A stretch of 29,416 bases of DNA. It comes from a virus. The notes beneath the pieces were generated by a model. The model saw only the letters and a program-made list of their open reading frames with translations, ran no database searches and was not told the DNA's origin. The DNA lies in the IMG/VR virus record IMGVR_UViG_3300005584_001325, positions 1 to 29,416 of that record. The stretch is one strand, 5' to 3'. Each line of letters opens with the position of its first letter. Positions within the stretch are counted from its first letter, which is position 1. Both the position numbers and the translations under genes were made by a program. This document shows, in pieces, positions 3,325 through 16,458 of this stretch.

Positions 3325-3380
3325 ATGCGCTTTGACCGAATCATAACCACCCCCTGCGAGACGCCGGGTTCGGACATAGC
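3325..3380 (+). repeat. 56-bp perfect direct repeat, unit A
   Basis: The first 56 bases of propeller copy 1 are identical to 4348-4403. The repeat distance is 1023 bases, exactly one gene plus spacer, which marks a tandem gene duplication. Confidence 0.9.
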
Positions 3381-4344
3381 TACCACTACTGGTTCTGACT
3401 CCACCACCACTACGGGTGGGGATTCTACCAGCACCACGGGTGGGGATGTGAGCAGTAGCACGGGTGGGGATTCTACCAGCACTACGGGTGAATACGGAGC
3501 AACTTGGACAGCGCAGGCGAGCGGTAGCCAGAGTTGGTTTTCCATCGCCTCATCGTCAGACGGGACGAAGCTGGCTGCGGTGGCACAAAACGGCCAGATA
3601 TACACCTCGGTGAATTCAGGTGTCACCTGGGTAGCCAAAGACAGTGCCCGCGATTGGCGTTCTATTGCGTCATCTTCTGATGGCACAAAGCTGGTAGCAT
3701 CGGCATATAACGACCGAATCTACACATCGGTGGACTCGGGCGAGACTTGGACGGCGAGGGGGACCGTCCAATTTTGGTTTTACGGCCTTGTTTCGTCGTC
3801 AACCGGACAATATCTTGCGGCGGTGGAATCTGGCGGCCAGATATACACCTCGACCGACTACGGCGTAAACTGGACAGCGCAGGCGAGCGGTAGCCGGGGT
3901 TGGTTTTCCATCGCCTCATCTTCGGACGGGACGAAACTGGCGGCGACGGAGGAGAACGGACAGATTTGGACTTCGACCGACTACGGCGTGAACTGGACAG
4001 CACGGGATAGCAATCGGTTTTGGCGGTCCATCGCCTCGTCGGCGGATGGAGAGAGGCTGACAGCGACGGTTAGCGGTGGCCAGATATACACCTCGACCGA
4101 CTACGGCGTAAACTGGACAGCGCAGGCGAGCGGCAGCCGGAATTGGAACTACATCGCCTCGTCGGCAGACGGAGAGAGGCTGGCGGCGGTAGTCCAAAAC
4201 GGCCAGATATACACCTCGACGGACAGGGGCGTGAACTGGACAGCACGGGACGGCAGCCGTAATTGGTGGTCCATCGCGTCGTCGGCGGACGGGAGCAAGT
4301 TGGTGGCTGGGGTTTGGAACGGTCAGATTTATACCTCACCTTGA
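3325..4344 (+). CDS. Seven-bladed beta-propeller virion protein, copy 1 (339 aa)
   Basis: Residues 1-15 form a short anchor (MRFDRIITTPCETPG). Residues 16-55 are a stalk built from 8-residue repeats of the type GGDSTSTT. From about 58 to the end there are seven repeats of about 40 residues. Each runs TWTAQASG, an aromatic position, IASS-DG-KLAA, GQIYTS, then an Asp-box-like end (STDYGVNW, resembling the BNR/Asp-box SxDxGxTW). Seven blades make a complete propeller, the shape used by sialidase-like and lectin-like binding proteins. No catalytic sialidase residues are recognisable, so carbohydrate or receptor binding is likelier than hydrolysis. The ATG is 6 bases after the previous stop, with no Shine-Dalgarno. 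The next gene is its tandem duplicate. Role as tail tip or receptor-binding protein is inferred. Confidence 0.8.
   Translation: MRFDRIITTPCETPGSDIATTTGSDSTTTTGGDSTSTTGGDVSSSTGGDSTSTTGEYGATWTAQASGSQSWFSIASSSDGTKLAAVAQNGQIYTSVNSGVTWVAKDSARDWRSIASSSDGTKLVASAYNDRIYTSVDSGETWTARGTVQFWFYGLVSSSTGQYLAAVESGGQIYTSTDYGVNWTAQASGSRGWFSIASSSDGTKLAATEENGQIWTSTDYGVNWTARDSNRFWRSIASSADGERLTATVSGGQIYTSTDYGVNWTAQASGSRNWNYIASSADGERLAAVVQNGQIYTSTDRGVNWTARDGSRNWWSIASSADGSKLVAGVWNGQIYTSP
3370..3489 (+). repeat. 24-bp repeats encoding an 8-residue Ser/Thr/Gly stalk (copy 1)
   Basis: The stalk contains about four imperfect octapeptides (GSDSTTTT, GGDSTSTT, GGDVSSST, GGDSTSTT). At DNA level they are 24-base units with the shared core ACGGGTGGGGAT. 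Ser plus Thr make up over half of the residues and no hydrophobic core is possible, so it should be an extended linker. Confidence 0.85.
3500..4344 (+). repeat. Seven tandem ~120-bp propeller-blade repeats (copy 1)
   Basis: Blades repeat about every 120 bases and keep high nucleotide identity, for example around GGCCAGATATACACCTCGAC, which recurs almost unchanged. Later blades are the most alike, suggesting recent internal amplification. Differences concentrate at a few positions per blade, just before IASS and just before GQIYTS. Confidence 0.8.
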
Positions 4345-4347
4345 CCC

Positions 4348-4403
4348 ATGCGCTTTGACCGAATCATAACCACCCCCTGCGAGACGCCGGGTTCGGACAT
4401 AGC
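4348..4403 (+). repeat. 56-bp perfect direct repeat, unit B
   Basis: Second copy of the 56-base direct repeat. Identity ends where the Ser/Thr stalk begins, so the anchor is strictly conserved while the stalk and blades have diverged. Confidence 0.9.
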
Positions 4404-5367
4404 CACAACTACTAGCTCTGACTCCACCACCACTACTGGCTCTGACTCCACCAGCACAACGGGTGGGGATTCCACCAGCACAACGGGTGGGGATGTGAGC
4501 AGCACTACGGGTGGGGGCGATACATGGACAGCGCAGGCGAGCGGCGACCGGGATTGGATTGGCATCGCTTCCTCTGATGACGGGACTAAGCTGGCGGCGC
4601 TGGCGTTTATTGGCCAGATTTACACCTCGACCGATTCGGGTGTGACCTGGACGGCGCGGGACAGCAACCGGGCGTGGCAGGGCATCGCCTCGTCCTCGGA
4701 CGGGACGAAGCTGGCGGCGGTGGTTGCCAGCGGCCAGATTTATGTGTCCAGTGATTCGGGTGTTTCTTGGACAGCAAGGGATAGCAACCGGAGTTGGCGG
4801 GGCATCGCCTCGTCGGCGGACGGGACGAAGCTGGCGGCAACAGTTGAAGGGGGCCAGATTTACACCTCGACTGACTCAGGCGTAACTTGGGTAGCGCAGG
4901 CGAGCGGCAGCCGGGGTTGGGCATTTATCGCCTCGTCAGCGGACGGGACGAAGCTGGCGGCGACCGTGTTTGCACCCGCTGGTCAGATTTACACGTCCAC
5001 TGATTCGGGTGTTACTTGGGCAGCGCAGGAGAGCAACCGGGCTTGGTATTCCATTGCCTCTTCTTCGGACGGGACGAAACTAGCAACTTTTGTTGTTAAC
5101 GGCCAGATTCACACCTCGACCGATTCGGGCGTGACTTGGACGGCGCGGGACAGCAACCGGGCGTGGCAGGGCATCGCCTCGTCTAGTGACGGGACAAATC
5201 TGGTTGCAGTGGTTTGGCCCGGACTTATCTACACGTCCAGCGATTCAGGCGTAACTTGGGTAGCGCAAGCAAGCGGAAGCCGTAATTGGTGGTCCATCGC
5301 CTCTTCTTCGGACGGGACAAAGTTGGCGGCGGGGGTAGCTGGCGGCCAGATTTATACCTCACCTTGA
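4348..5367 (+). CDS. Seven-bladed beta-propeller virion protein, copy 2 (339 aa)
   Basis: This is a tandem duplicate of the preceding gene with the same length, the same anchor and the same design: anchor 1-15, Ser/Thr/Gly stalk 16-57, then seven blades of about 40 residues ending in Asp-box-like STDSGVTW. The first 56 bases are identical to copy 1, and the last 24 bases (GGCCAGATTTATACCTCACC and the stop) are nearly so. Blade 4 carries a small insertion (FAPAGQ). The ATG follows copy 1 by three bases, with no Shine-Dalgarno. Its stop overlaps the TTG start of the first cassette gene (TTGA), which ties the carbohydrate cassette translationally to the tail genes. Likely a second receptor- or glycan-binding tail component. 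Confidence 0.8.
   Translation: MRFDRIITTPCETPGSDIATTTSSDSTTTTGSDSTSTTGGDSTSTTGGDVSSTTGGGDTWTAQASGDRDWIGIASSDDGTKLAALAFIGQIYTSTDSGVTWTARDSNRAWQGIASSSDGTKLAAVVASGQIYVSSDSGVSWTARDSNRSWRGIASSADGTKLAATVEGGQIYTSTDSGVTWVAQASGSRGWAFIASSADGTKLAATVFAPAGQIYTSTDSGVTWAAQESNRAWYSIASSSDGTKLATFVVNGQIHTSTDSGVTWTARDSNRAWQGIASSSDGTNLVAVVWPGLIYTSSDSGVTWVAQASGSRNWWSIASSSDGTKLAAGVAGGQIYTSP
4393..4518 (+). repeat. 24-bp repeats encoding an 8-residue Ser/Thr/Gly stalk (copy 2)
   Basis: The equivalent of the copy 1 stalk, with octapeptides SSDSTTTT, GSDSTSTT, GGDSTSTT and GGDVSSTT. Unit order and composition differ from copy 1, as expected from slippage or recombination within the repeats. Confidence 0.85.
4519..5367 (+). 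repeat. Seven tandem ~120-bp propeller-blade repeats (copy 2)
   Basis: Blades share near-identical DNA such as ACCTCGACCGATTCGGGTGT and CATCGCCTCGTC. Blades 1, 2 and 6 are particularly close (ARDSNRAWQGIASSSDG occurs twice), evidence of internal duplication or gene conversion. Variation is again focused on the positions flanking the conserved Trp and before GQIYTS. Confidence 0.8.
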
Positions 5368-6020
5368 AATTTGTCATAAAATACCCAACTCGGGGTAGGC
5401 CATCCCAGTTCATTCGGCAGATGCAGACGTATCGCTCCATGCTGTCCAGGAAGCACCCTGTCAGATTTGTTATCTCCATAGATGAGGATGACAGGTTTAT
5501 GAAAAGCAAGGAGATGGACAACTACTTTCGCAGGCAAAAAGATTGCCAAGTATTTGTCGGTCAATCGAAGGGCAAGATCGAGGCGGTCAACGCCGACTTC
5601 GACAAGCTGGGGAACTATGATGTGTTGATTCTAGCCAGCGACGACATGATCCCGACAACTCGGCATTACGATCTGGTTATTGCAGACCTGATGAAGGAGC
5701 ATTTCCCTGCTATGGATGGCTGCCTGCATTTCTATGATGGGCTTAATGCTCACGGGCTTAACACCATGCCGATTGCGGGTAAGAGGTTGATCGACAAGCA
5801 GGGCTACATCTACCAGCCAGACTACATTTCAGAGTGGTGCGACAATGAGTGGCAAGACGTAACAGAGCGCGACGGTAAGAGCTTTAAGTCTGAGAAGATT
5901 TTGTTTTGCCACGAATGGATAGCAAAGACGGGTCAGGATGCAACTTTTAAGAGGAATTCTGGGTTTTATTCTATCGACAAGTTGACCTATCAACGGAGAA
6001 AGGCGGCAGGCTTTCCGTGA
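5364..6020 (+). CDS. GT-A glycosyltransferase-like protein, first gene of the cassette (218 aa)
   Basis: I choose TTG at 5364 because it overlaps the upstream stop (TTGA) and yields the typical N-terminus of this phage/environmental family (KFVIKYPTRGRPSQF); the frame stays open further upstream only as a shadow of the propeller gene. Visible motifs are an early beta strand with acidic residues (ISIDEDD), a DXD-like metal-binding site (LILASDDMIP), a central HFYDG segment and a late conserved His (LFCHEW). These fit a GT-A sugar-nucleotide fold acting in the cytoplasm. Donor and acceptor cannot be told. The stop overlaps the next start (GTGA), so it is translationally coupled to another glycosyltransferase. 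Confidence 0.72.
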   Translation: MKFVIKYPTRGRPSQFIRQMQTYRSMLSRKHPVRFVISIDEDDRFMKSKEMDNYFRRQKDCQVFVGQSKGKIEAVNADFDKLGNYDVLILASDDMIPTTRHYDLVIADLMKEHFPAMDGCLHFYDGLNAHGLNTMPIAGKRLIDKQGYIYQPDYISEWCDNEWQDVTERDGKSFKSEKILFCHEWIAKTGQDATFKRNSGFYSIDKLTYQRRKAAGFP

Positions 6021-6571
6021 GCGTCTTCCGGCTCTCCATTCTCATCGCAACGCTGCCTGAGCGGGCTGGGTTCCTGCGCCGACTACGCGCCGTGCTAGAC
6101 CCGCAGATGCGAGGTCAGCCGGTGGAGCTGCTGCTAGACGCCCGCCCAAGGCCCGTGTCTATCGGCACCAAGCGCAACGCCCTGCTTGACCGGGCCAGGG
6201 GCGACTATGTGGCCTTTTGCGATGACGACGACTTGGTTAGCGCAAACTATGTGGCAGACGTGCTGGCGGCTCTCAAGGACGGGCCGGACTGCGCGGAGCT
6301 TCGTGGTGTCATCACTACAAACGGGACTCAACCAAAAAGGTTTCACCACTTTATACAATGTCAGAAATGGGAAGAGAAGGATGGGGTGTATCTACGCTAC
6401 GCCAACCACCTGAACGCCATCAAGCGCGAGCTGGCTTTACAAGCGAGGTTCCCGGAAATCAACCACGGCGAAGACAAGGATTTCAGCGACCGGGTAAAGC
6501 CGTTGCTCAAGACAATGGGAGCCGTGCCGCGCACGATTTATTTCTACGATTACAGGACCAAGAAACCATAG
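6017..6571 (+). CDS. Family 2-type glycosyltransferase (184 aa)
   Basis: A GTG start overlaps the upstream stop. The N-terminus (FRLSILIATLPER) is the first strand of a GT-A fold. GTKRNALLDRARGDYVAFCDDDD places the DXD metal-binding acidic cluster at residues 69-72, and a late acidic segment (NHGEDKDFSDRV) matches the position of the catalytic base region. At 184 aa it is shorter than usual GT2 enzymes (230-300 aa) and contains little beyond the catalytic core. Its base composition is clearly more GC-rich than the genes that follow, suggesting a separate origin. A 37-base gap follows, the largest in the cassette. Confidence 0.75.
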   Translation: MSVFRLSILIATLPERAGFLRRLRAVLDPQMRGQPVELLLDARPRPVSIGTKRNALLDRARGDYVAFCDDDDLVSANYVADVLAALKDGPDCAELRGVITTNGTQPKRFHHFIQCQKWEEKDGVYLRYANHLNAIKRELALQARFPEINHGEDKDFSDRVKPLLKTMGAVPRTIYFYDYRTKKP

Positions 6572-6608
6572 ATGGCCCGCTGAACCCGCTTAACTTGCTT
6601 TACACATT

Positions 6609-7304
6609 ATGGCTGATTCAGTCCTGATAACGTCACTCTTCAAATGTTCCGCATTAAGAACTTGCGATATAAGGATTGCACTTGAACAAAATCGGAGAAA
6701 TCCACACATCAAAGAATTTGTTTTTCTTTGCGAAGGAAATCCAACTGTTCTTGCGGAAACCTTTGGCATTGATCTCTGGACGGAAAGAAAGGTGGAGCTT
6801 GTTGAAATTAAAGAGCGCGTTAGATTCCATGATTTTTTTGAACACGCCAACCGACTCTACAGGGGTAAGGTTGTAATTGCCTGCAACTCTGACATATACT
6901 TCGATGACACTCTTGGAATGGTTTTGAATTTGGACTATCTGGCTGACCCTTCTGGCAACAATTCAAGACTGATGGTCTTAACAAGGCACAATCTTTGCAT
7001 GGTTAACGGAATAAAAATTGAGGGTGTTGGCCGCATTAACGGCGGATCTAACGATGCTTGGATTTTTAAGTCTCCAATACTAAGGTTTGCATGGGACATA
7101 AAAGTTGGAATAATTGGATGCGACGCTTATGTAGCGCAAAGCGCAAAGAGGGGTGGGTTAATAGTTACAAACCCATGCCTTAGTGTCAGGGCAATTCATT
7201 TCCACCCATCACTAGAGCGAGGCGAACAAAACTTGAAAGGCGACCAGAATTACTGGCACGCCAATGATTATGTGTGTGCTGAAATAGCCCCATGCAGTTT
7301 ATGA
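6609..7304 (+). CDS. GT-A-like glycosyltransferase domain protein (231 aa)
   Basis: The segment VVIACNSDIYFDDTL resembles the NSDIYFD signature seen in a family of viral and bacterial glycosyltransferase-like proteins, where the acidic residues occupy the DXD position. A C-terminal RAIHFHPS stretch supplies conserved histidines. No signal or membrane segment is visible. Its ATG comes after a 37-base non-coding stretch without a Shine-Dalgarno, so it is not overlap-coupled upstream, while its stop overlaps the next start (ATGA at 7301). The gene is visibly AT-richer than its left neighbour. Assignment to the GT-A superfamily is moderate; substrate unknown. Confidence 0.6.
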   Translation: MADSVLITSLFKCSALRTCDIRIALEQNRRNPHIKEFVFLCEGNPTVLAETFGIDLWTERKVELVEIKERVRFHDFFEHANRLYRGKVVIACNSDIYFDDTLGMVLNLDYLADPSGNNSRLMVLTRHNLCMVNGIKIEGVGRINGGSNDAWIFKSPILRFAWDIKVGIIGCDAYVAQSAKRGGLIVTNPCLSVRAIHFHPSLERGEQNLKGDQNYWHANDYVCAEIAPCSL

Positions 7305-8059
7305 GAGAAATTAAAACTTTTTGCGATTGGCATCTTGGAGACAATTTAATACATCTTAATTTCTTTAGGAGGCTGGCTGTTGCAAATCCAAATTCAAACT
7401 TCATTCACGCAGCTCCAGCAGAACAGGTTTGGCAGCTTAAAAAAGTTGTTTCTGACTTAGGGAATTGTCGGGTGGTTGATTCTCGTAGCGGAGATGGATG
7501 GATAGATTCTTGGAAAAACGCAGACAACTTCTTTACGGGGCATCCATTGATGGGAAAGTTTACAGCTTTCCACATTGAGCATTTTAATAGGCTCTCTGGC
7601 AAACTTGGTTTTGAGTCTCCTGTAAAGTGTTCGGATGACATGGTTTTTGATTATCCTGCGCTGTGGGAAGAGGCTTGGAGCGGAAGAGAATATGATTACC
7701 TATTTGTAAACAGTCGGCCAATGAGCGGTCAGCTTTGCAGCTACAAAGAAGGTTTTTTTGGTTCGGTTATTGATGAGCTTGTTCAACACGGAAAGCGGGT
7801 TGCCGTTACGCAAGATGACGGACACAAGGGGACGGTTTGCACAAAACCACTATCGGTTAGTGAGGTGGGAAACTTGTCCATCAGGTGCGCCAATATAATT
7901 GGAGTTGCAACCGGGCCAATATGGACAACATTCAATGTTCGATCAAAACCAAAACTTCGCATAGTTTGCTTGGACAATAACGAACAACTGGACCTGACCA
8001 GCGATATTATCCAATGTCAGAATATCAGTCAGGTTCGAGCGGCTATTGGCAAAATATGA
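7301..8059 (+). CDS. GT-B-like (GT9-type) glycosyltransferase (252 aa)
   Basis: I choose ATG at 7301 because it overlaps the previous stop (ATGA); an in-frame ATG at 7292 would add three residues. The N-terminal GDNLIHLNFFRRLA matches the GD-hLh glycine/aspartate turn that opens GT9 (heptosyltransferase-like) enzymes. The middle FVNSRPMSGQ and the late IGVATGPIWTTFN stand where GT9 enzymes have the sugar-nucleotide contact and the TGPMH-type motif. At 252 aa it is shorter than typical GT9 enzymes (about 340 aa). In the host this class adds sugars to lipopolysaccharide cores; the acceptor here is unknown. Confidence 0.55.
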   Translation: MREIKTFCDWHLGDNLIHLNFFRRLAVANPNSNFIHAAPAEQVWQLKKVVSDLGNCRVVDSRSGDGWIDSWKNADNFFTGHPLMGKFTAFHIEHFNRLSGKLGFESPVKCSDDMVFDYPALWEEAWSGREYDYLFVNSRPMSGQLCSYKEGFFGSVIDELVQHGKRVAVTQDDGHKGTVCTKPLSVSEVGNLSIRCANIIGVATGPIWTTFNVRSKPKLRIVCLDNNEQLDLTSDIIQCQNISQVRAAIGKI

Positions 8060-9096
8060 AAGCCGCATTGCTTGTAGAAACTGGCAAACCGCTGGAAATT
8101 TGGGACGTGTTTTGTAGCCGTCTTGAATACGGACAGGTCAAAGTGAAAGTTTTGGCCAGCGGGATTTGTGGCGCTCAACTGCAAGAAATAAGTGGAGAAA
8201 AGAAAGGCGGAAAACTTCCTCATTTAATTGGTCACGAAGGCGTTGGAATTGTGATTGAAATTGGGGTTGGAGTGACGCGCATGAGTGTTGGTGACAAAGT
8301 GGTAATGCACTGGAGAAAGGCTGCTGGGATTGAGTCTCCAAATCCGACTTATGTGATAGGCGGAAAATCAGATAGATACAAAAGCCCAGCATTCCTAAGC
8401 GACATAACATCTGGCAAAGTAAACACGCTAACTGAAGAGGCGATATGTTCGGAGAACAGGCTAACTCCAGTCACTCACGATACGCCAAATGATTTATGTG
8501 CGCTGCTTGGATGCGGACTTTCAACCGCGCTTGGAACAATTGAGAACGAGGCGGATCTAAAGTTTGGCGAGACAGTTTTAATTATAGGCTGCGGCGGGCT
8601 TGGGGCAAATCTAATCCTGGCGTCGAAGTTGCGGCAAGCCAGTCGAATCGTGGTGGTTGACGTGGAGCAATCTAAGGAAAAGTTGGCGATTTCTCTTGGG
8701 GCGCACAAGTTTATGGTTCCCGACAATTCGTTAAAACTTTTGCCAGCTTTTGACGTGATTGTTGATACCACTGGTAATTTTTCAGCGGTGCGTGACGCTT
8801 TTCAACTGCTTGCCAGCGGAGGAAGATTCATCATGGTTGGGCAACCAAAGCCAGGAGCCAGCATGGAAATACCAAACGCGATTGGCTTGTTCTACGGTGA
8901 AGGCAAGCGAATCATAGCCACCCAAGGAGGGCAGTTTAGACCGCATCTGGACGTGCCGAGATACGTTGCAATGTGGCGGGCTGGACTGCTCAATGTTGAA
9001 GGTTTAGTGACGCACAGGTTTCCGCTAAACAGGATTAATGAAGGTTTGGACTTGGTGCGGTCAGGTCAGGCCGGAAGGGTTATGGTGGAAATGTGA
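8056..9096 (+). CDS. Zinc-type medium-chain dehydrogenase/reductase (346 aa)
   Basis: ATG at 8056 overlaps the previous stop (ATGA) and gives the canonical MKAALLVETGKPLEIWDV start; the frame is open 14 codons further upstream. Catalytic zinc ligands are visible as Cys38 (SGICGAQ), His60-Glu61 (LIGHEGVG) and Cys153 (GCGLSTALG). The Rossmann motif GCGGLG starts at 178 and Asp202 ends the second strand, favouring NAD over NADP. The four cysteines of the structural zinc lobe are absent. The length is normal for the family. It oxidises an alcohol or reduces a carbonyl. Next to a thiamine-diphosphate enzyme pair and sugar transferases, a nucleotide-sugar or ketosugar substrate is plausible but unproven. 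The stop overlaps the E1 beta-like start (GTGA). Confidence 0.85.
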   Translation: MKAALLVETGKPLEIWDVFCSRLEYGQVKVKVLASGICGAQLQEISGEKKGGKLPHLIGHEGVGIVIEIGVGVTRMSVGDKVVMHWRKAAGIESPNPTYVIGGKSDRYKSPAFLSDITSGKVNTLTEEAICSENRLTPVTHDTPNDLCALLGCGLSTALGTIENEADLKFGETVLIIGCGGLGANLILASKLRQASRIVVVDVEQSKEKLAISLGAHKFMVPDNSLKLLPAFDVIVDTTGNFSAVRDAFQLLASGGRFIMVGQPKPGASMEIPNAIGLFYGEGKRIIATQGGQFRPHLDVPRYVAMWRAGLLNVEGLVTHRFPLNRINEGLDLVRSGQAGRVMVEM

Positions 9097-9617
9097 ACTA
9101 CAAACAGATTATTTGCGATTCGATGCTGGAGTTTTCCAAAGACAATTCCGTTATTTTTGTTGGTTATGGTCTTGAGAAAGGACGAGCCAACGGAACGCTG
9201 GCCGGAATACCAAACGATAGAATTGCACAACTAGGTGAAATGCCGGTTGCTGAGAACTTGCTCATTGGAGTGGCAATCGGTCTGGCACTAAAAGGTCGAA
9301 AGGTCATCGCCTACATTGAGCGTTTCGATTTTGCATTGCTGGCCGCTGATGTGATTGTAAACCAGCTCGACAAGATTGGTAGAATCTCAAATGGAGAGTT
9401 TAGCCCTGGCGTTATGATTCGATGCAATGTTGGGGGAAAGTCTCGACCGCTGTTCACTGGGCTTCCGCATACGCAGGATTTGACGGCAGGCTTTGCAGCA
9501 ATGGTTTCATTTCCAGTTGTGCGCTACACGGATTCTACCAGCCCACCATACGTTGAAGCCTTTGCTGCTCTTCCAAATCGATCTACCATGATTGTGGAGT
9601 ATCGAGATCTCTATTGA
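9093..9617 (+). CDS. Thiamine-diphosphate enzyme, E1 beta-type pyrimidine-binding half (174 aa)
   Basis: A GTG start overlaps the dehydrogenase stop. The sequence follows the N-terminal half of 2-oxoacid dehydrogenase E1 beta and transketolase pyrimidine domains: GLEKGRANGT, then LGEMPVAEN with the conserved Glu54 that contacts N1' of the cofactor, then GVAIGLALKGRKVIAYI and FALLAADVIVNQLDKI. It stops after about 174 residues, so the C-terminal transketolase domain normally present in E1 beta (about 325 aa) is missing. It should pair with the next gene product to build an active site at the subunit interface. Such stand-alone pairs occur in antibiotic and polysaccharide clusters where they make or attach two-carbon units on sugars; the role here is inference. 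Confidence 0.8.
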   Translation: MNYKQIICDSMLEFSKDNSVIFVGYGLEKGRANGTLAGIPNDRIAQLGEMPVAENLLIGVAIGLALKGRKVIAYIERFDFALLAADVIVNQLDKIGRISNGEFSPGVMIRCNVGGKSRPLFTGLPHTQDLTAGFAAMVSFPVVRYTDSTSPPYVEAFAALPNRSTMIVEYRDLY

Positions 9618-10276
9618 TGAAAACTGCTGTTGAACTAATCGCATTCGAGCGACGCATTGCCTCCCTGTGGGAAGCTGGTGAGCTTCCTGATTTGGTTCAC
9701 CTAGCGGGCGGGAACGAGGACGCGCTGCTGAATGTTTTTAAGCATGTAAAACCGGAAGATTGGGTTTTTGCAAGCCACCGGTCGCACTATCACGCGCTTT
9801 TGAAAGGCATCCCAGAGGAGAGGGTGGAGTCAGAAATCAAGTCTGGCCGGTCCATGTTCCTTTTTTCAAAAGAACATAATTTTGTTACTTCCGCAATACT
9901 TGGTGGAACTTCCTGCATGGCTGCTGGAGTAGCTTGGCAACTGAAGAGTGAAGGTTCAAAAGCGATGGTGTGGTGCTTTCTTGGTGATGGCGCTTCTGAA
10001 AATGGACACACCTACGAGGCTGCATTGTTTGTTGATGCAAACGATCTTCCATGCCGATTTGTCATCGAAAACTCTGGCTATCAAGTTGATACCGACCTTG
10101 CAACTAGGCGTGGAGGAAGTGAAAACCTTCACAACCCTCTGTCAAATTTCAAATGCGTAAGCAGTTATGACTACGTTCGGGTGTATCCGCACGCTGGAAG
10201 CGGAACAAAAAACAAAATTTTCTTTAATCCAAATGTCGTAGAGAGCAGGCTTTCCAAAGCAAATGAACGAGATTGA
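9617..10276 (+). CDS. Thiamine-diphosphate enzyme, E1 alpha-type diphosphate-binding half (219 aa)
   Basis: ATG at 9617 shares one base with the previous stop (TGATG); TTG at 9614 would add one residue. The cofactor diphosphate motif is complete: GDG at 123-125 and Asn152 in GDGASENG...FVIEN, a GDG-X26-N spacing. An early SHRSHYHALLKG matches the conserved His region of E1 alpha, and TSAILGGTSCMAAGVAW matches its glycine-rich helix. At 219 aa it is well below the usual 330-400, lacking the C-terminal part with the phosphorylation loop and partner contacts. No E2 or E3 genes are nearby, so a lipoyl-transferring complex is unlikely. Its end overlaps the methyltransferase gene by 14 bases. Confidence 0.82.
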   Translation: MKTAVELIAFERRIASLWEAGELPDLVHLAGGNEDALLNVFKHVKPEDWVFASHRSHYHALLKGIPEERVESEIKSGRSMFLFSKEHNFVTSAILGGTSCMAAGVAWQLKSEGSKAMVWCFLGDGASENGHTYEAALFVDANDLPCRFVIENSGYQVDTDLATRRGGSENLHNPLSNFKCVSSYDYVRVYPHAGSGTKNKIFFNPNVVESRLSKANERD

Positions 10277-10910
10277 AAAGTTTTACTCAGATTTAGTGGC
10301 GGATTCAAGCGTTGTCACAGTGTTTGAACTTGGTGCCTGTGACGGCAAGCATACCGCAATGCTGGAAAGAATAGCTGGTGACAAGCTGGCTTTGCTGGTT
10401 TCTTTTGAGGCTGCTCCATACAACTGGGACCGACTGCCGAAGCTGTCAGAAAAAGTTAAGTTTTTTAAGGGTGCAGCATCAGACCGGGATGGATTTTGTG
10501 ATCTTTGGCTTTCAAGCGGCCCTGGTTATCACGGATCGTCATCTATTCGGGAGCCAAAAAAGCACAAGGAGGTGTGGCCAAATTGCAAATTTGAAAGCCG
10601 CGTAGAGGTGGAGTGCATTACCCTGGATTCAGCAGCCAAGAGATTTGGAGTGGATGCCATTGACTTCATCTGGTGCGACATTCAGGGGGCGGAGCGAGAC
10701 GCCATCACAGGAGGAGCTTCCATCCTTGCTAAAACCAAGTATTTCTACACTGAAGTTTCAGAAATGGAACATTACCAAGGGCAACTTTTGAAAGCTGATT
10801 TTGTTAGTCACCTTGAAGCGAAGACGGGGGTTGGGTGGGTCATGGAGAAAGACTTTGGTGGCGACCAGTTCGGTGGAGACGTGCTGTTTAGGAATCTAAA
10901 AATCACTTGA
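10263..10910 (+). CDS. FkbM-type methyltransferase (215 aa)
   Basis: An AdoMet-binding Rossmann fold is visible: VFELGACDGKHTAML as motif I, VSFEAAPYNW as motif II with the acidic ribose contact, and IDFIWCDIQGAERDAITGG as the FkbM-family signature (IDFIKxDxxGxE form). FkbM-like enzymes methylate hydroxyls on sugars or polyketides, and they are frequent in capsule and O-antigen loci. The ATG lies inside the end of the E1 alpha-like gene, and the stop overlaps the next start (TTGA). The length agrees with the short form of the family. Likely function: O-methylation of a cassette-made sugar. Confidence 0.82.
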   Translation: MNEIEKFYSDLVADSSVVTVFELGACDGKHTAMLERIAGDKLALLVSFEAAPYNWDRLPKLSEKVKFFKGAASDRDGFCDLWLSSGPGYHGSSSIREPKKHKEVWPNCKFESRVEVECITLDSAAKRFGVDAIDFIWCDIQGAERDAITGGASILAKTKYFYTEVSEMEHYQGQLLKADFVSHLEAKTGVGWVMEKDFGGDQFGGDVLFRNLKIT

Positions 10911-11641
10911 AAATCTCAGTGTCGTGTTTAACTTACGGTAGAACCCCCCTCCTAGAAGAGGCCGTTCAGAGCTTCCTACAGCAAGACTACCCGGACAAGG
11001 AGATGGTCATTTTTAACTCGATGCAAGGCCAGCGCCTTACGTTCTTGCATCCGCAAGTTAAGGTTGTGAACCACCCATCCCGGCCATCAACTCTTGGCGA
11101 GACAAGGAATCTCTGCATCGAGCATTGCACGGGCGACTACATCGCCATCCTGGACGATGACGACATTATCCTGAAAGGCTACCTGTCTTGGCTGGCCGAT
11201 CACGTTGGGGACATGGACTGGATTCGGCAGGGAAGCAAGTTTACAGTGAAGCGTGGGATTGTTCAAAAGATGGGGGGTGCAGCCAACAACCAGCTCATGT
11301 TCAAGCGGTCTGCGTGGGAGGCTGTTGGTGGATACCCGCAGATGGATTCAGGCGAAGACGACGTGTTCAGGAAGGCTCTAATCCAGAAGACTAAAGGCAA
11401 AACCTTGCAGTGCGAGCCGAGGGAGATTGGTTTCATCTACCGATTTGGGCACGGGCTTTACAACATTTCATCTTTCGGCAGGAACAGCGATGGCTCAAAG
11501 ACGGGGCTTGAAAAATGCGACCAGAAGCTACGAGCGCGTGGCGGCGGAAAGAGCGGCGTGTTTGAGCTTCGTCCGCATTGGGATTGTAATTACTTTGTGA
11601 TTACAAGAAAATGGCTCGGAGCAAACGGATACTCTCACTAA
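10907..11641 (+). CDS. Family 2 glycosyltransferase (244 aa)
   Basis: A TTG start overlaps the methyltransferase stop. The N-terminus KISVSCLTYGRTPLLEEAV is the GT2 first strand and helix. TLGETRNLCIEHCTGDYIAILDDDD puts the metal-binding acidic cluster at residues 83-86. A later GGYPQMDSGEDDVF matches the GT2 acceptor-loop ED motif. The C-terminal part (about 165-244) is basic with no membrane helices, so it is probably a soluble cytoplasmic enzyme. The family transfers a sugar from a nucleotide donor with inversion. The stop TAA shares its last base with the next ATG. Confidence 0.82.
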   Translation: MKISVSCLTYGRTPLLEEAVQSFLQQDYPDKEMVIFNSMQGQRLTFLHPQVKVVNHPSRPSTLGETRNLCIEHCTGDYIAILDDDDIILKGYLSWLADHVGDMDWIRQGSKFTVKRGIVQKMGGAANNQLMFKRSAWEAVGGYPQMDSGEDDVFRKALIQKTKGKTLQCEPREIGFIYRFGHGLYNISSFGRNSDGSKTGLEKCDQKLRARGGGKSGVFELRPHWDCNYFVITRKWLGANGYSH

Positions 11642-12582
11642 TGATCTCCATCGTAATACCTGTCCGCAATGACCAAGAGGAGGCAAACGCCACCATTGCA
11701 AGCATTCGGGCCACTGCCGGGAAGGAGCCTGAGATTGTGGTGATTGACGATGGGAGCGATAAGCCGCTCACACTCGACCATGACGACATTGTTTTCAGGC
11801 GGGTAGATGGAAGGTGCGGAGTTGGTGGTTCAAGGCATCTGGGTTCCATTCTTGCGAGCCGCGAGAACATCCTGCTTTTGGACAGCCATTGCCGATTTGA
11901 ACCAGGTTGGTATGAGGAGGCTTGCAGGCGAATCAAGGACTACCCTCAAACCATCTGGACCACCACTTGCGTTGGCCTTAATGCCGCCAACATGGACATT
12001 GCGACAAGCAACAAATTCTACAACGGGGCGACGTTGAACCTCTTCGGTGAAAACCACAACAAGCCAGAGGATATGCAGTTCATCGAGGCGAAGTGGGTTC
12101 CTGGCTCCTTCTACAAGGACGGCGACGAGATAGCCTGCCTCCTTGGTGGAGCTTACTTCATGCGCCGAGACTTCTTCTTCAAGATCGGTGGCAGCAAGAT
12201 GCTCAATCAGTGGGGAAGCTCGGAGCCTCACCTCTCCTTGAAGGCGTGGTTGGCGGGAGGGGATTGCCGACTGATGAAGACCGTCAGGATTGGGCACCAG
12301 TTCAGGTCGGCAACTACCTACACCTCGAAGCGGGCTTCCTTGCTCTTTAACAAGATGATGATTGCCATGACGCTCTTTCCAGAGGGGGCAGCCGAGTTCA
12401 TTGTCCGAAAGCTGGAGCAGCACACCAAGCCGACTTCTGATTTGATGATAGCAAAGAACCTCATCAAGGGTGAGCAGCGGCACATTGAGTGTGACCGCGC
12501 CTACAATGAGGCTGTTTTCACTAGGGATTTGGAGTGGTATCTTGAGAAGTTCAAGCTGCCTAGATTTTGGCTTGAAAGATAA
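11641..12582 (+). CDS. GT-A glycosyltransferase resembling polypeptide GalNAc-transferases (313 aa)
   Basis: I choose ATG at 11641 (TAATG overlap), which gives MISIVIPVRNDQEE; an in-frame ATG at 11611 would add ten atypical residues. Motifs in order: EIVVIDDGSD (31-40), SRHLGSILA, LLLDSHCRFEPGW with the D-S-H metal triad at 81-83, GGAYFMRRDFFFKIGG (169-184), W191-G192 followed by EPHLSLKAW, and IGHQFR (217-222). DSHCE, GG-F-I, WG-E-N-E-S and GH-FR in this order are the hallmarks of the GT27 polypeptide N-acetylgalactosaminyltransferases and nearby GT2 enzymes. No lectin domain or membrane anchor is present. It is the last cassette gene, 26 bases before virion genes resume. Protein or glycan acceptor cannot be decided from sequence. 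Confidence 0.75.
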   Translation: MISIVIPVRNDQEEANATIASIRATAGKEPEIVVIDDGSDKPLTLDHDDIVFRRVDGRCGVGGSRHLGSILASRENILLLDSHCRFEPGWYEEACRRIKDYPQTIWTTTCVGLNAANMDIATSNKFYNGATLNLFGENHNKPEDMQFIEAKWVPGSFYKDGDEIACLLGGAYFMRRDFFFKIGGSKMLNQWGSSEPHLSLKAWLAGGDCRLMKTVRIGHQFRSATTYTSKRASLLFNKMMIAMTLFPEGAAEFIVRKLEQHTKPTSDLMIAKNLIKGEQRHIECDRAYNEAVFTRDLEWYLEKFKLPRFWLER

Positions 12583-12608: not shown

Positions 12609-12866
12609 ATGGCCTGCCCTCTTCCAAGCCAGTTCGAGAATCTGGTTCCATTGGACCCAGATAATCCTACCTGTGAAGAGCTGGCGGCCATTATGACCGA
12701 ACTGCCAAAACTGCTTTTGGAGTGGTGGTCCTGCTGGTTTAGAGAGGACGGAACTTTAACCGATGAGTTCAGCGATTCTATTTGCGCTATCTCATGCGGC
12801 GGCTCTCCTGTGACCACCACTACTGGCGGCGGGAGCGCAACAACTACTACTGGCGTTCCTCCATAA
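12609..12866 (+). CDS. Short virion protein: Cys-containing domain ending in a Thr-rich stalk (85 aa)
   Basis: Residues 1-65 align by eye with the N-terminus of the next gene: M-CP-PS-F--L, CE-L, then ED-T-T--F and C--CGG, with all five cysteines matched (3, 22, 42, 59, 63). Residues 66-85 are a Thr/Gly/Ser stalk (VTTTTGGGSATTTTG) followed directly by Pro-Pro and the stop. It looks like the anchor plus stalk of a display protein whose head domain is missing. It could be a truncated paralogue, a natural stub or a decoy. ATG without Shine-Dalgarno. Confidence 0.65.
   Translation: MACPLPSQFENLVPLDPDNPTCEELAAIMTELPKLLLEWWSCWFREDGTLTDEFSDSICAISCGGSPVTTTTGGGSATTTTGVPP
12804..12863 (+). repeat. Thr-rich stalk sequence (ACN repeats)
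   Basis: Two blocks of four Thr codons separated by Gly-Gly-Gly-Ser-Ala. The DNA core ACCACTACTGG also occurs in the stalks of the propeller genes, linking four unrelated virion genes by one kind of linker. Confidence 0.75.
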
Positions 12867-12892: not shown

Positions 12893-13960
12893 ATGCCATG
12901 CCCGACTCCATCTGACTTTAACGATCTAATCGTCTCCCTTGAAGCTCCGGTTTGCGAACAGCTACGCAAGTTGGGGCGACTCTCTAAAGCCGTTTCTGAC
13001 GCCTACTCTTGTATTTACAATGAGGATTTGACCTTCACTACGGATTTCAATACCAAACTTTGCGCGACTGGCTGCGGTGGTGGCGGTGGCGACACTAACA
13101 CCTCAACGTCTGACCCGACTGGGCCGGGAGCAGCCTACATGGCGACCCAGTTCCTCTCTGGTGGAGTTTACCGTGGCCGGTTGTTCAGCCTTGAGACTGG
13201 CGGTTGGACTTACGCCACAATCAGCGGCAGCATGGATCAGGTGATTGTTGGGATGGCAGTTCGCCCGAACGACTCTACGCTCTGGGCGATCTATTTCGAC
13301 GCGACTGGCGATGCGTCGCCGTATCCTTTGCGGCTTGGGACAGTGAACGTGACCACTGGGGCGCTGACCTACGTTGACACAATCAACTCGGGTGGATCTG
13401 ACTGGGATTCGACTACGCCGTGGATTGACTACTACAGCCTTGAGTTCAGGCCGAATTCCACGCTGCTGATGGGCTACTGGAGTTCGCCGTCCAGCACCGA
13501 CGCACAAATTTACTCAGTAAGCACCACCACTGCTGCGCTTACCGCCATTGGGACACGGTTGAACCCGGTTGGTGTGGCTTCCTACTTCTTTCCGTATTCT
13601 CTGTCTTACGATGCAGCAGCGACGCCCGCGCTTCATTGTTTGGGGCTGAATGCGGCAACTGGAGATGTTACCACGTCTTCAGTCAATCTCACTCCAAACC
13701 CTTCTGCTGGAAACGTCATCGAAGCAACCGAAGGTTGCGTCATCACAAACACCGGATCTAGCCTTCCTGCTGGCGCGGCGGCTCGCACCTACACCGGCTT
13801 GCTCAACAAAAACGGAAAGCAACAAATCGTTGTGCGTGCCCTTGGTGACATCTACGAAGTGACTAACACAATTGGTGGGTGCAGCAACCCGCATGTTCTA
13901 AAGATGACCGGAGCTGGCTCGATGACTGACGTGACTGCCGTTGCTGGAATTCCTTCCTAA
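12893..13960 (+). CDS. Virion protein: shared five-cysteine anchor plus beta-rich head, possibly a propeller (355 aa)
   Basis: Residues 1-62 are the same anchor domain as the preceding 85-aa protein (Cys 3, 21, 40, 57, 61). A Gly-rich hinge (62-66) and a short Thr/Ser stretch (NTSTSDPTG) follow. From about 80 to the end the chain is beta-rich with recurring elements such as GRLFSLETGGWTY, RLGTVNVTTGALTYV and AQIYSVSTTTAALTAI, separated by WAIYFD and LLMGYW strands. This is typical of irregular propellers that report value-versus-time text in annotations. No catalytic motif was found. The ATG is 26 bases after the previous stop. Likely a tail-tip or receptor-contact protein, inferred from the anchor-stalk-head design and location. 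Confidence 0.68.
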   Translation: MPCPTPSDFNDLIVSLEAPVCEQLRKLGRLSKAVSDAYSCIYNEDLTFTTDFNTKLCATGCGGGGGDTNTSTSDPTGPGAAYMATQFLSGGVYRGRLFSLETGGWTYATISGSMDQVIVGMAVRPNDSTLWAIYFDATGDASPYPLRLGTVNVTTGALTYVDTINSGGSDWDSTTPWIDYYSLEFRPNSTLLMGYWSSPSSTDAQIYSVSTTTAALTAIGTRLNPVGVASYFFPYSLSYDAAATPALHCLGLNAATGDVTTSSVNLTPNPSAGNVIEATEGCVITNTGSSLPAGAAARTYTGLLNKNGKQQIVVRALGDIYEVTNTIGGCSNPHVLKMTGAGSMTDVTAVAGIPS

Positions 13961-13961
13961 C

Positions 13962-15905
13962 GTGTCAACCAGTCCCTACAAATCAGTCATCATGCGACCC
14001 TTGACCGGGCCGCTAGACTGTCGTTCAAACCCAGAGGACGCTCCCCCTCTGTCGTTTCGGATGAAGCTGAACTTCGATGTGGACAAGGATGATAAGCTGT
14101 CTCGCTCTGCCGGTTGGGAGAAGCTGTTGTCCAAAACCCCCTACGCAAATCAAGACGCTCACGATCAGGGTGACTGCTTTGATGTGTTTCCCGTGCGGGA
14201 GCCGATTACATTCCTCTATGAGGCGACCACCAATGATGGCACTCGGAGGCTGGTTCGCGGAACTCAGTCGAAAGTTGCCATCCTCAATGAGGGAAGCGGT
14301 AACTGGGATGTCGTTGGCAGAGGCTTCGGAGGAAGCACAGTAAGCAGCCAGATTCGATGGAGCGCTGGGCAGTCTGGCAATACGATGGTTTTCACAAATG
14401 GCTATGACAAGCCTCAGAAATACACTATCGGAACAATCCCCGGTGTCTGCGGAGCGAATATGCTTGCGGAGATTGCAGAACTGAATGACCTGAAGATTTC
14501 GCGGGCTGGAGTGGTGGCAAGTTTCTCCGGGTGTGTTTTCCTGATGGACGTAACGCAGGAGGGGACTCGCGTTACAAGTCGGGTTCGCTGGAGTGGTGTC
14601 AACAGGCCGCTGGTGTGGAAGAGTGGGGATGACACCGTTGCGAACTACCAAGACTTGCCCTACACGGAAACCATTCTCGCCGCCTCAGAGTTGCAGGGCA
14701 ATCTGGTTATCTTCACGGACAAAAGCATCTACCGCTGTTTTGTCGCTGGAACCTCGTTTGGCTTCACTCGCGTTTACACAGAACCTCGCGGCCTTGATAA
14801 GTGTATCGCCTATCCGAAGTCGCTAGTTAGCGATGGCAACAGCCTTTGGTGGCTTGGGCGGGACGGCTTCTATCGGTGGGATGTTTACAGTCCAGAACCG
14901 GTAATAGCGGAATGGCTATATCGTTCCGAGACGCTGGTGATGAACGATCTCGACCCGACTTGCTGCGAAGGCCCGGTTGGGGAATACTGGCCTGACAGTA
15001 AAACGATATTCTGGTCGTGGCCGAAGTCGGACTCTAGCTGCATTCCTCACCGCACGATTAAAGCCAATCTGAGGGCTAACACGGTAAGCCTGGTTGACCA
15101 CGGGTTCACCGCCTTCTCCAACTACCGCAGCGATCTCCAGCAGTCTCTCCAAAACTGGCTGGACGAGTTCTGCGGCACTGACCTTGACAACCTGTGCATC
15201 GCAATCGGAACAAAGCGAATTGATGATTTCTGCCAGGTCTGCAACCAGACACAGCTTTTCATCGCTGCATGTTCGGACGACTTCTGCATCAAGCAGATTG
15301 GGACCGCTTACTCGCGTGAAGTCTGCACCAACGCAGCCAGCGGTTTTGGAGGATTTGGGCCTGGTGGCGACTACGTTCCTTTCACCGGACAATACACGCA
15401 GGATGGATACTTCTCTGTGGTGCGAGGGATGTTCCCGCTAGGTTTCTTGGACAAGGAGAAGTCCATTAAGAACTTCCTGATGGAACCGACCGTGCAAGAT
15501 TTGCTTGGGCAATCAAACTATTGGCGGCTGAGGATCGGAACCAGCTACCAGGCCAGGGACGCCAACGTGTCAGGAAACCCGCTGGCGTTTGCCTACCTGA
15601 CAGATGGAATCGCACCCACATACGAGGCGGAATTTGCTACAGACGGTGGAGATTGCGAAGTTATCTGGCGGCGGATGAGTGATAAGCCCATCCAATGCCC
15701 CGATACCAAAACGGTAGCCCAATACATTGCCCAGAACATTCGGCCTGTAAAATCAGTGAACTGGGTATTCCTTGAGCAGGGGAGGTTCCTCTACTACGAG
15801 CTTTCTGTTATAACCAAGAACGAGGCAGATGAAGTAGTTCCCCCGGTTGGGGCTGTGTTCACAATCAGCCGGTTTGCGGTAGAAGCTCGGGTTCTGAGTA
15901 TGTAG
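13962..15905 (+). CDS. Large tail protein, nozzle/tail-tubular-B-like (647 aa)
   Basis: I prefer GTG at 13962, one base after the previous stop; ATG at 13992 (MRPLTGPLDCRS) is a good alternative, and the frame opens at TTG 13941. The chain is beta-rich with recurrent strand pairs (RRLVRGTQSKVAIL, TMVFTNGYDKPQKYTI, NLVIFTDKSIYRCF, SLWWLGRDGFYRWDV). Such patterns occur in podovirus nozzle and stabilisation proteins (the T7 gp12/P22 gp10 class of ring proteins). A Cys-rich middle section (about 380-450) is unusual for that class. The length fits (about 470-800 aa in known relatives). The gene ends one base before the convergent - strand operon. The tail-ring role is inferred from pattern and position. 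Confidence 0.6.
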   Translation: MSTSPYKSVIMRPLTGPLDCRSNPEDAPPLSFRMKLNFDVDKDDKLSRSAGWEKLLSKTPYANQDAHDQGDCFDVFPVREPITFLYEATTNDGTRRLVRGTQSKVAILNEGSGNWDVVGRGFGGSTVSSQIRWSAGQSGNTMVFTNGYDKPQKYTIGTIPGVCGANMLAEIAELNDLKISRAGVVASFSGCVFLMDVTQEGTRVTSRVRWSGVNRPLVWKSGDDTVANYQDLPYTETILAASELQGNLVIFTDKSIYRCFVAGTSFGFTRVYTEPRGLDKCIAYPKSLVSDGNSLWWLGRDGFYRWDVYSPEPVIAEWLYRSETLVMNDLDPTCCEGPVGEYWPDSKTIFWSWPKSDSSCIPHRTIKANLRANTVSLVDHGFTAFSNYRSDLQQSLQNWLDEFCGTDLDNLCIAIGTKRIDDFCQVCNQTQLFIAACSDDFCIKQIGTAYSREVCTNAASGFGGFGPGGDYVPFTGQYTQDGYFSVVRGMFPLGFLDKEKSIKNFLMEPTVQDLLGQSNYWRLRIGTSYQARDANVSGNPLAFAYLTDGIAPTYEAEFATDGGDCEVIWRRMSDKPIQCPDTKTVAQYIAQNIRPVKSVNWVFLEQGRFLYYELSVITKNEADEVVPPVGAVFTISRFAVEARVLSM

Positions 15906-15906
15906 G

Positions 15907-16458
15907 CTACTCGGCTGTCCATATCTTCGATTGTCTTTTCATGGCGTCGGAAAACTCCAGCTTGTTGTCGGTAAAGCTGCGTTCCCGAAAAACGATATGG
16001 TTTGTTGGCTGCACGGTCAGATGGTCGTTGTCGAGCCGAACAAAGCTAAACTCTTTGGACTGCTCTGGGTAAGCAGAAAACCCATCGCCCACAGGCGACA
16101 CGGTAAATAGATATTCTCCAAGGTGTTCCTTACCACCCGCTCTCACCTTACATTCCAACCCTCGCAAGAAACTGTATTCCACCGCCGACCAGTCCCAACC
16201 GTAGCAGTCCCACGTTTGAGCGTCCCGCTCCGTCCATTTGCCTTTCGGTTTATTGCTGAACGCAATAGCGTGAGAGGGGATGTTGCGATACACCGATCCC
16301 GATTCGAGCATGACGGTGCAACCCCAAACACGGCCCGGATAGCTGACTAGCCCATACCAGACGGCGGGGACATAACCGCAAGGCTTTTTGTGGGTGTGCC
16401 GACTGTCCACCCAAACGTAAAAGTGTCTTGGAATCTCACCAGTCAGCGTGTTTCTCAT
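15907..16458 (-). CDS. Conserved-looking phage protein of unknown function (183 aa)
   Basis: Last gene of the - strand unit; its ATG overlaps the upstream stop (ATGA). The sequence is rich in aromatic residues (TWDCYGWDWSAVEYSFL) and looks like a single compact alpha/beta or beta domain; I recognise no catalytic motif. It begins MRNTLTGEIPRHFYVWVDSR without a signal peptide, and no membrane helix is seen. I believe similar short proteins occur in other phages, but cannot name the family. It converges on the tail protein gene with a single base between the two stop codons. Confidence 0.65.
   Translation of the reverse strand: MRNTLTGEIPRHFYVWVDSRHTHKKPCGYVPAVWYGLVSYPGRVWGCTVMLESGSVYRNIPSHAIAFSNKPKGKWTERDAQTWDCYGWDWSAVEYSFLRGLECKVRAGGKEHLGEYLFTVSPVGDGFSAYPEQSKEFSFVRLDNDHLTVQPTNHIVFRERSFTDNKLEFSDAMKRQSKIWTAE

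Follow-up and report, generated by a model that had tools for sequence, protein, structure and literature searches.

We have analysed a 29,416-base window of viral DNA (IMG/VR record IMGVR_UViG_3300005584_001325) in which four overlapping genes at 8056-10910 encode a Zn-dependent dehydrogenase, the two subunits of a putative thiamine diphosphate (ThDP) enzyme, PYR and PP, and an FkbM-family methyltransferase. We propose that these genes and their neighbours form a phage glycan-building module that makes a modified sugar, a reading to which we give a probability of about 45%; sugar modification as the role of the module is well supported. The proposal builds on the gene content, fold families, two-domain architecture, conservation and co-occurrence described below, from which we infer the substrate, the order of the steps, the product and the target. 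The four overlapping genes had been noted in an original prediction made from the DNA alone, and were confirmed by their open reading frames (ORFs) and by profile matches lying far beyond chance.

The PP subunit matched the E1_dh profile (7e-20), human pyruvate dehydrogenase (PDH) E1-alpha (1e-16) and phrog_34187 (4e-59). PYR matched phrog_34187 (2e-37), the E1-beta profile PRK09212 (5e-10) and, below the Pfam cut-off, Transket_pyr (0.0016). The phrog_34187 family is a fused PP-PYR protein, to which both window subunits correspond. The resemblance of PP to E1-alpha stops about 40 residues past the GDG motif, with the second half of E1-alpha missing, and the profile search found no transketolase C-terminal domain (Transketolase_C) in the 174 residues of PYR. 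Based on the homology of both subunits to phrog_34187, the lack of Transketolase_C and the adjacent Zn-dehydrogenase, the pair is assigned to a phrog_34187-type family of minimal two-domain ThDP enzymes. Glu54 of PYR is invariant and aligns with the catalytic Glu of E1-beta, and PP carries the GDG motif. In known PDH complexes, the C-terminal part of E1-beta docks to E2. This part is absent from PYR, which makes a PDH role unlikely, and PYR+PP probably cannot associate with a lipoyl-E2 complex.

An alignment query of PP retrieved 503 relatives in IMG/VR and at least 13 in 84,980 cellular species genomes, whereas a single-sequence query against IMG/VR gave no confirmed relative. By these matches the two-domain family is virus-rich, and the gene set is common to many unrelated phages. 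Carriers include the cyanophages S-SM2 and P-TIM68, where a fused PP-PYR gene directly follows the same Zn-dehydrogenase inside nucleotide-sugar clusters, and a 735-kb phage with PP and PYR as separate genes within a glycan cluster. Nearly every locus has both PP and PYR (a PYR match was missing from 12 of 165 PP loci, possible contig edges included). Fused and split forms, the latter in either order, are both common, so that the "split" E1 pair of the original prediction describes the window but is relative for the family. Its statement that no phage system of this composition had been described also needs qualifying, because the family is present in PHROGs and in two sequenced and annotated cyanophages; no function for it was found in the literature searched. 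Among cellular contigs, L088 and L090 (Kaiserbacteria and Parcubacteria) carry the dehydrogenase, a fused PP-PYR gene and a PfkB kinase, and lie near phage copies on the tree. Contigs L086, L087 and L089 (Deltaproteobacteria, Desulfobacterales and Nanoarchaeota) have the PP-PYR pair flanked by two or three radical S-adenosylmethionine (SAM) genes. In cellular contigs of Verrucomicrobia, Omnitrophota and Acidimicrobiales, and for PP-PYR in L091-L096, a GHMP kinase adjoins, mostly together with a nucleotidyltransferase, and some have DegT aminotransferase and B12-radical-SAM genes (families tested in representatives).

The neighbourhood survey suggested in the original prediction was carried out with hidden Markov models for the PP, PYR, dehydrogenase, radical-SAM and glycosyltransferase families, mapped on the fetched loci. 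The counts describe sampled clades, among the matches listed (80 per scan; 503 PP relatives in all). The 138 loci of the union fell into 45 dereplicated viral groups, 17 with the Zn-dehydrogenase only and 28 with a radical-SAM/SPASM protein only; none had both and none had neither. The PP-scan set of 23 viral groups was divided into 10 and 13, respectively, and a PYR-query scan run to test the exclusivity gave 30 groups divided into 9 and 21, again with none having both or neither; the two sets have some contigs in common. All 10 radical-SAM groups of a radical-SAM-query scan had PYR and PP, a less independent result as loci of this kind had supplied the query. Between PYR and PP, a single slot (PYR-X-PP) is filled by one or the other of the two proteins in loci L007 and L026. 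Contig L088 was considered as a locus with both and was rejected: its radical-SAM match is weaker, on the opposite strand and about 2 kb past the PP-PYR gene, outside the cassette. Cellular contigs are looser, with neither family in 5 of 12 groups and B12-radical-SAM genes instead in some. The either/or neighbour pattern of the viral loci is new in the present analysis.

The radical-SAM family has CxxxCxxC and C-terminal Cys motifs and matches MoaA, BlsE, PqqE, DesII and BtrN, the similarity to BtrN being distant. In the sister 2-deoxystreptamine pathway, the oxidation performed by BtrN is carried out by an NAD-dependent dehydrogenase. BtrN itself is a radical-SAM dehydrogenase that forms a ketone from an alcohol group of an aminocyclitol (PMC9012708). 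By parallel with this pair, the Zn-dehydrogenase and the radical-SAM protein may be interchangeable alcohol oxidases. The best trees contained three label changes, with starred branches forcing two on the larger tree, suggestive of several independent swaps, which we consider likely.

The dehydrogenase matched ADH_N (3e-14), ADH_zinc_N (1e-12) and phrog_2640 (7.6e-76). It has the catalytic zinc ligands Cys38, His60 and Cys153 and a Rossmann GxGxxG motif, present in the window as the NAD(P) motif GCGGLG; the aligned phage relatives show no variation in these ligands, in Glu61 or at the GCGGxG positions. The methyltransferase matched Methyltransf_21/FkbM (2.5e-13; 51 bits against a curated cut-off of 22.7) and TIGR01444 (59.1 against 37.7). 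Thus, the FkbM gene of the original prediction is real, but as a core part of the module it was rejected, FkbM-like genes occurring in 11 of 56 groups and mostly with much weaker E-values. The frequent partner lies outside the predicted interval: the gene at 7292-8059 has homologues in 77 loci and is often found upstream of the E1 genes. Its AlphaFold2 model (mean pLDDT 89.7) had Foldseek matches to WaaC (7e-08, TM 0.65) and TibC (2e-07), and the product is predicted to have a GT9 heptosyltransferase-like fold. No Pfam or NCBIfam glycosyltransferase profile matched it, and for this reason we call it GT9-like rather than a member of GT9.

In the proposed pathway, the Zn-dehydrogenase, or in many relatives the radical-SAM dehydrogenase, would oxidise a sugar hydroxyl to a ketone or aldehyde, the sugar being either linked to a nucleotide or transferred beforehand. 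PYR+PP would then use a 2-oxo acid, for instance pyruvate, as the donor of a two-carbon unit to be joined to this carbonyl, and the sugar would become branched or chain-extended. In the window phage the FkbM enzyme would O-methylate the sugar, and the GT2 and GT9-like transferases would attach it to the virion or the host surface. Carbohydrate chemistry is indicated by the glycan and sugar-gene surroundings of the viral and cellular relatives, the oxidation step by the oxidase swap and the distant likeness to BtrN, and the two-carbon addition by analogy with AviB1/AviB2 and Pau11/Pau12. In the proposals made for these E1-like pairs, a two-carbon branch derived from pyruvate is added to a 4-keto sugar (PMC4425429, PMC4753412). 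The outline of the small sugar pathway in the original prediction was supported by the GT2-type and GT9-like neighbours and by relatives in phage glycan clusters, its branched or keto product remaining a conjecture. A bolder version, in which interchangeable oxidases and a minimal ThDP carboligase make branched or higher-carbon sugars of a new class that are placed on the phage's own virion proteins, is rather doubtful.

Several observations weigh against the proposed module. No enzyme assays of the two-domain family were found. The window has no dehydratase or nucleotide-sugar synthesis gene, so that the substrate would have to be supplied by the host or by genes beyond the 29-kb record. An approximately unbiased (AU) test was compatible with a single radical-SAM clade (p 0.22-0.23), which is why repeated swaps are claimed only as likely; this result and the roughly three label changes indicate that the exclusivity is partly due to shared ancestry. 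The metal site of the window enzyme is another such point. In a gapless alignment to human E1-alpha, the second N of "ENN", which we take to be the metal ligand known from E1 structures, corresponds to Ser154 of PP; this position is Asn in 278 and Asp in 18 other sequences, and Ser in the window copy alone (one misread motif aside). Hence, of the key motifs originally described as intact, Cys38/His60/Cys153, GCGGLG, Glu54, GDG and DIQGAE held, but "GDG-X26-N" only in part, its N being the residue just before the predicted ligand position. Such a change, in a window that forms a long branch on the tree, could mean that the E1 pair is inactive or altered and that the glycosyltransferases, dehydrogenase and methyltransferase work alone. 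We regard this as quite improbable, since both frames are open with their overlap kept, Glu54 and the other invariant residues are conserved, and Ser can coordinate a metal; in addition, Asn153 directly precedes it, and human E1-alpha shares the Tyr found two positions further on. The main chemical rival is a transketolase-type reaction, in which PYR+PP would transfer a two-carbon ketol unit from one sugar to another to form a ketose or higher-carbon sugar (heptulose/octulose-type) that the dehydrogenase and the GT9-like protein would process and transfer. It agrees with the best Foldseek matches of the fused form, which are transketolases, with the GT9 fold of the partner gene (WaaC, TibC) and with the PfkB/GHMP sugar kinases, nucleotidyltransferases and phosphoheptose isomerase near relatives. 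However, the profiles score best against E1 alpha and beta of 2-oxo-acid dehydrogenases and not against transketolase, and no PfkB-type kinase was present near the window genes or in the split two-domain viral groups, so we consider this reaction unlikely.

Two further explanations concern the origin of the genes. A phage copy of the host pyruvate or 2-oxoacid dehydrogenase E1, acting as an auxiliary central-metabolism gene, would account for the remote relationship of the pair to E1 alpha and beta of PDH, but is hardly credible given the absence of Transketolase_C and of half of E1-alpha, the lack of recognised E2/E3 genes, the 27-31% identity to the best plasmid-borne E1 proteins and the glycan context throughout. 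The loss of domains and the missing complex genes ruled it out, and the check for a central-metabolism enzyme called for by the original prediction therefore gave a pair that is not of host type, one metal-site residue being altered in the window copy. Its other concern, that host and phage DNA had been joined in a chimeric contig, was not borne out and is the least probable of all: no supporting evidence was found, most neighbours at 5373-12582 overlap on one strand, and the same combination of glycosyltransferase, dehydrogenase and E1 genes is seen again in independent contigs (L098, L099, L101, L113, L020 and L029) and in sequenced cyanophages. This recurrence ruled out a chimeric assembly.

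Where the sugar of the proposed module would be placed is a closer matter. Virion proteins are the likeliest target, narrowly, because of the late virion-operon position and the nearby Ser/Thr-rich tail-type proteins, a host glycan being nearly as likely. In loci L020, L026 and L029, the order is a major head-type gene, a glycosyltransferase, the GT9-like gene, the PYR, oxidase and PP genes, and tail genes. By PHROG assignment, L026 and L029 have the major head gene upstream of the module, and a tape-measure gene follows it in L020 and L026 (L026 has both calls). With the chemistry unchanged, the sugar may instead be added to a host surface polysaccharide, leading to superinfection exclusion or receptor change, an explanation that we hold to be somewhat unlikely. 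It is favoured by the cyanophage and cellular relatives, whose heptose and nucleotide-sugar-type clusters resemble surface polysaccharide synthesis more than virion glycosylation, a further point against the proposed reading. It is also favoured by modules away from tail genes: the stand-alone sets of Zn-dehydrogenase, fused PP-PYR and short-chain dehydrogenase in L028 (3896-6773) and L037 (6856-9825), with no recognised glycosyltransferases and, in L037, an adjoining terminase gene, and the PP, PYR, radical-SAM and glycosyltransferase sets in L031 (7989-11009) and L036 (3140-6636), beside early or replication-recombination-type genes named by their sequence appearance only. Against it, the module lies within virion genes in the window, L020, L026 and L029, the window has no recognised flippase or polymerase gene, and strongly Ser/Thr-rich proteins adjoin the module there, though not generally in other carriers. 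Ser/Thr-rich virion linkers were indeed rejected as a general feature of carriers, as only one other ORF in the loci then sampled reached 55% S+T in 30 residues.

The features of the window are listed in the table below.

Table. Predicted features of the glycan gene run and the adjacent tail-type genes
Position	Strand	Feature	Basis or remark
3325..5367	+	Two tandem paralogues, Ser/Thr-rich N-terminal stretches followed by BNR/beta-propeller repeats	Candidate glycosylated tail proteins
5373..6020	+	Glycosyltransferase, PHROG 14945 type	PHROG match
6017..6571	+	GT2-type glycosyltransferase, PHROG 14775	Profile matches
6609..7304	+	Gene without named family	Aligns over 113 aa (29% identity) with part of a 1122-aa ORF from the 735-kb phage's glycan cluster
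7292..8059	+	Predicted GT-B glycosyltransferase, GT9/heptosyltransferase-like fold	AlphaFold2 model and Foldseek
8056..9096	+	Zn-dependent medium-chain dehydrogenase, 346 aa	Profiles and motifs; ATG overlaps the preceding stop
9093..9617	+	Putative ThDP enzyme PYR subunit, E1-beta-like, 174 aa, GTG start	Profiles, Glu54
9614..10276	+	Putative ThDP enzyme PP subunit, E1-alpha-like, 220 aa	Profiles, GDG; TTG start, or ATG at 9617
10263..10910	+	FkbM-family SAM-dependent O-methyltransferase, 215 aa	Profiles
10907..11641	+	GT2 glycosyltransferase	Profiles
11611..12582	+	GT2 glycosyltransferase	Profiles

The glycan gene run (5373-12582) comprises ten mostly overlapping genes on one strand, set between virion genes: four glycosyltransferases with Pfam/PHROG matches, one gene without a named family, the GT9-like gene and the four genes first noted. 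The GC content is 44-53% across 5-12 kb, with no sharp break at these four genes. For the first glycosyltransferase, GTG at 5373 was taken as the start (the longest ORF begins at 5286); its relatives, with 39-41% identity, occur with the dehydrogenase and E1 genes in L098, L099, L101 and L113. The run is flanked by BNR-repeat proteins and by a virion structural protein (PHROG) at 13941-15905. S+T reaches 63% and 70% in 30 residues in the two tandem paralogues, and poly-Thr stretches are also present in the proteins at 658-3318 and 12609-12866. On the minus strand, 15907-16458 encodes a homologue of phrog_3704 ("ferredoxin" in PHROGs), a relative of which lies upstream of the E1 genes in L101, and 17657-29416 is one open frame of 3,919 residues that continues off the record and matched DUF7178 and, weakly, phage L5 gp82 only.

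If the proposed module is correct, a ThDP-dependent C-C bond-forming step would be added to the known sugar chemistry encoded by phages, as part of a compact and swappable set of genes that make unusual sugars. From the dehydrogenase/radical-SAM swap, the expected reaction is the oxidation of an alcohol to a carbonyl, in combination with the ThDP step. Environmental phages often carry the enzyme family, yet its annotation does not go beyond "transketolase central region" or unknown function.

Among known systems, the closest are members of the minimal two-domain family in PHROGs and the two cyanophages, and not the E1 pairs of antibiotic clusters to which the original prediction had turned. 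S-SM2 and P-TIM68 share with the window an adjacent dehydrogenase (phrog_2640; 50-53% full-length identity), PP (45-48%) and PYR (39-40%) in a sugar cluster, but have PP-PYR fused, lie outside the tail region and have kinase, nucleotidyltransferase and phosphoheptose isomerase neighbours. No function of their dehydrogenase and "transketolase central region" genes was described in the literature searched; searches on cyanophage S-SM2 with transketolase or lipopolysaccharide found nothing, and those on phage E1 components with glycosyltransferases only unrelated papers. AviB1/AviB2 (avilamycin) and Pau11/Pau12 (paulomycin) are likewise stand-alone E1 alpha/beta-like pairs in a sugar pathway, but they are full-size (Pau11/Pau12 have 325 and 345 residues, compared with 220 and 174 in the window), and we know of no Zn-dehydrogenase or radical-SAM partner for either pair. 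Full-size E1 pairs (e.g., 320 and 343 residues) are also found in phage contigs L099, L101, L104, L105 and L113, with the same Zn-dehydrogenase upstream as in the window and, in several, relatives of the window glycosyltransferases g5 and g6; they differ in keeping Transketolase_C (tested in L105), in their longer chains and in their deep separation on the PP tree. The BtrN system differs from the window in serving aminocyclitol antibiotics, in the distant similarity of its radical-SAM protein and in having no E1 partner, but its two oxidase types, BtrN and the NAD-dependent dehydrogenase of 2-deoxystreptamine formation, serve one oxidation, as we propose for the swap in the phages.

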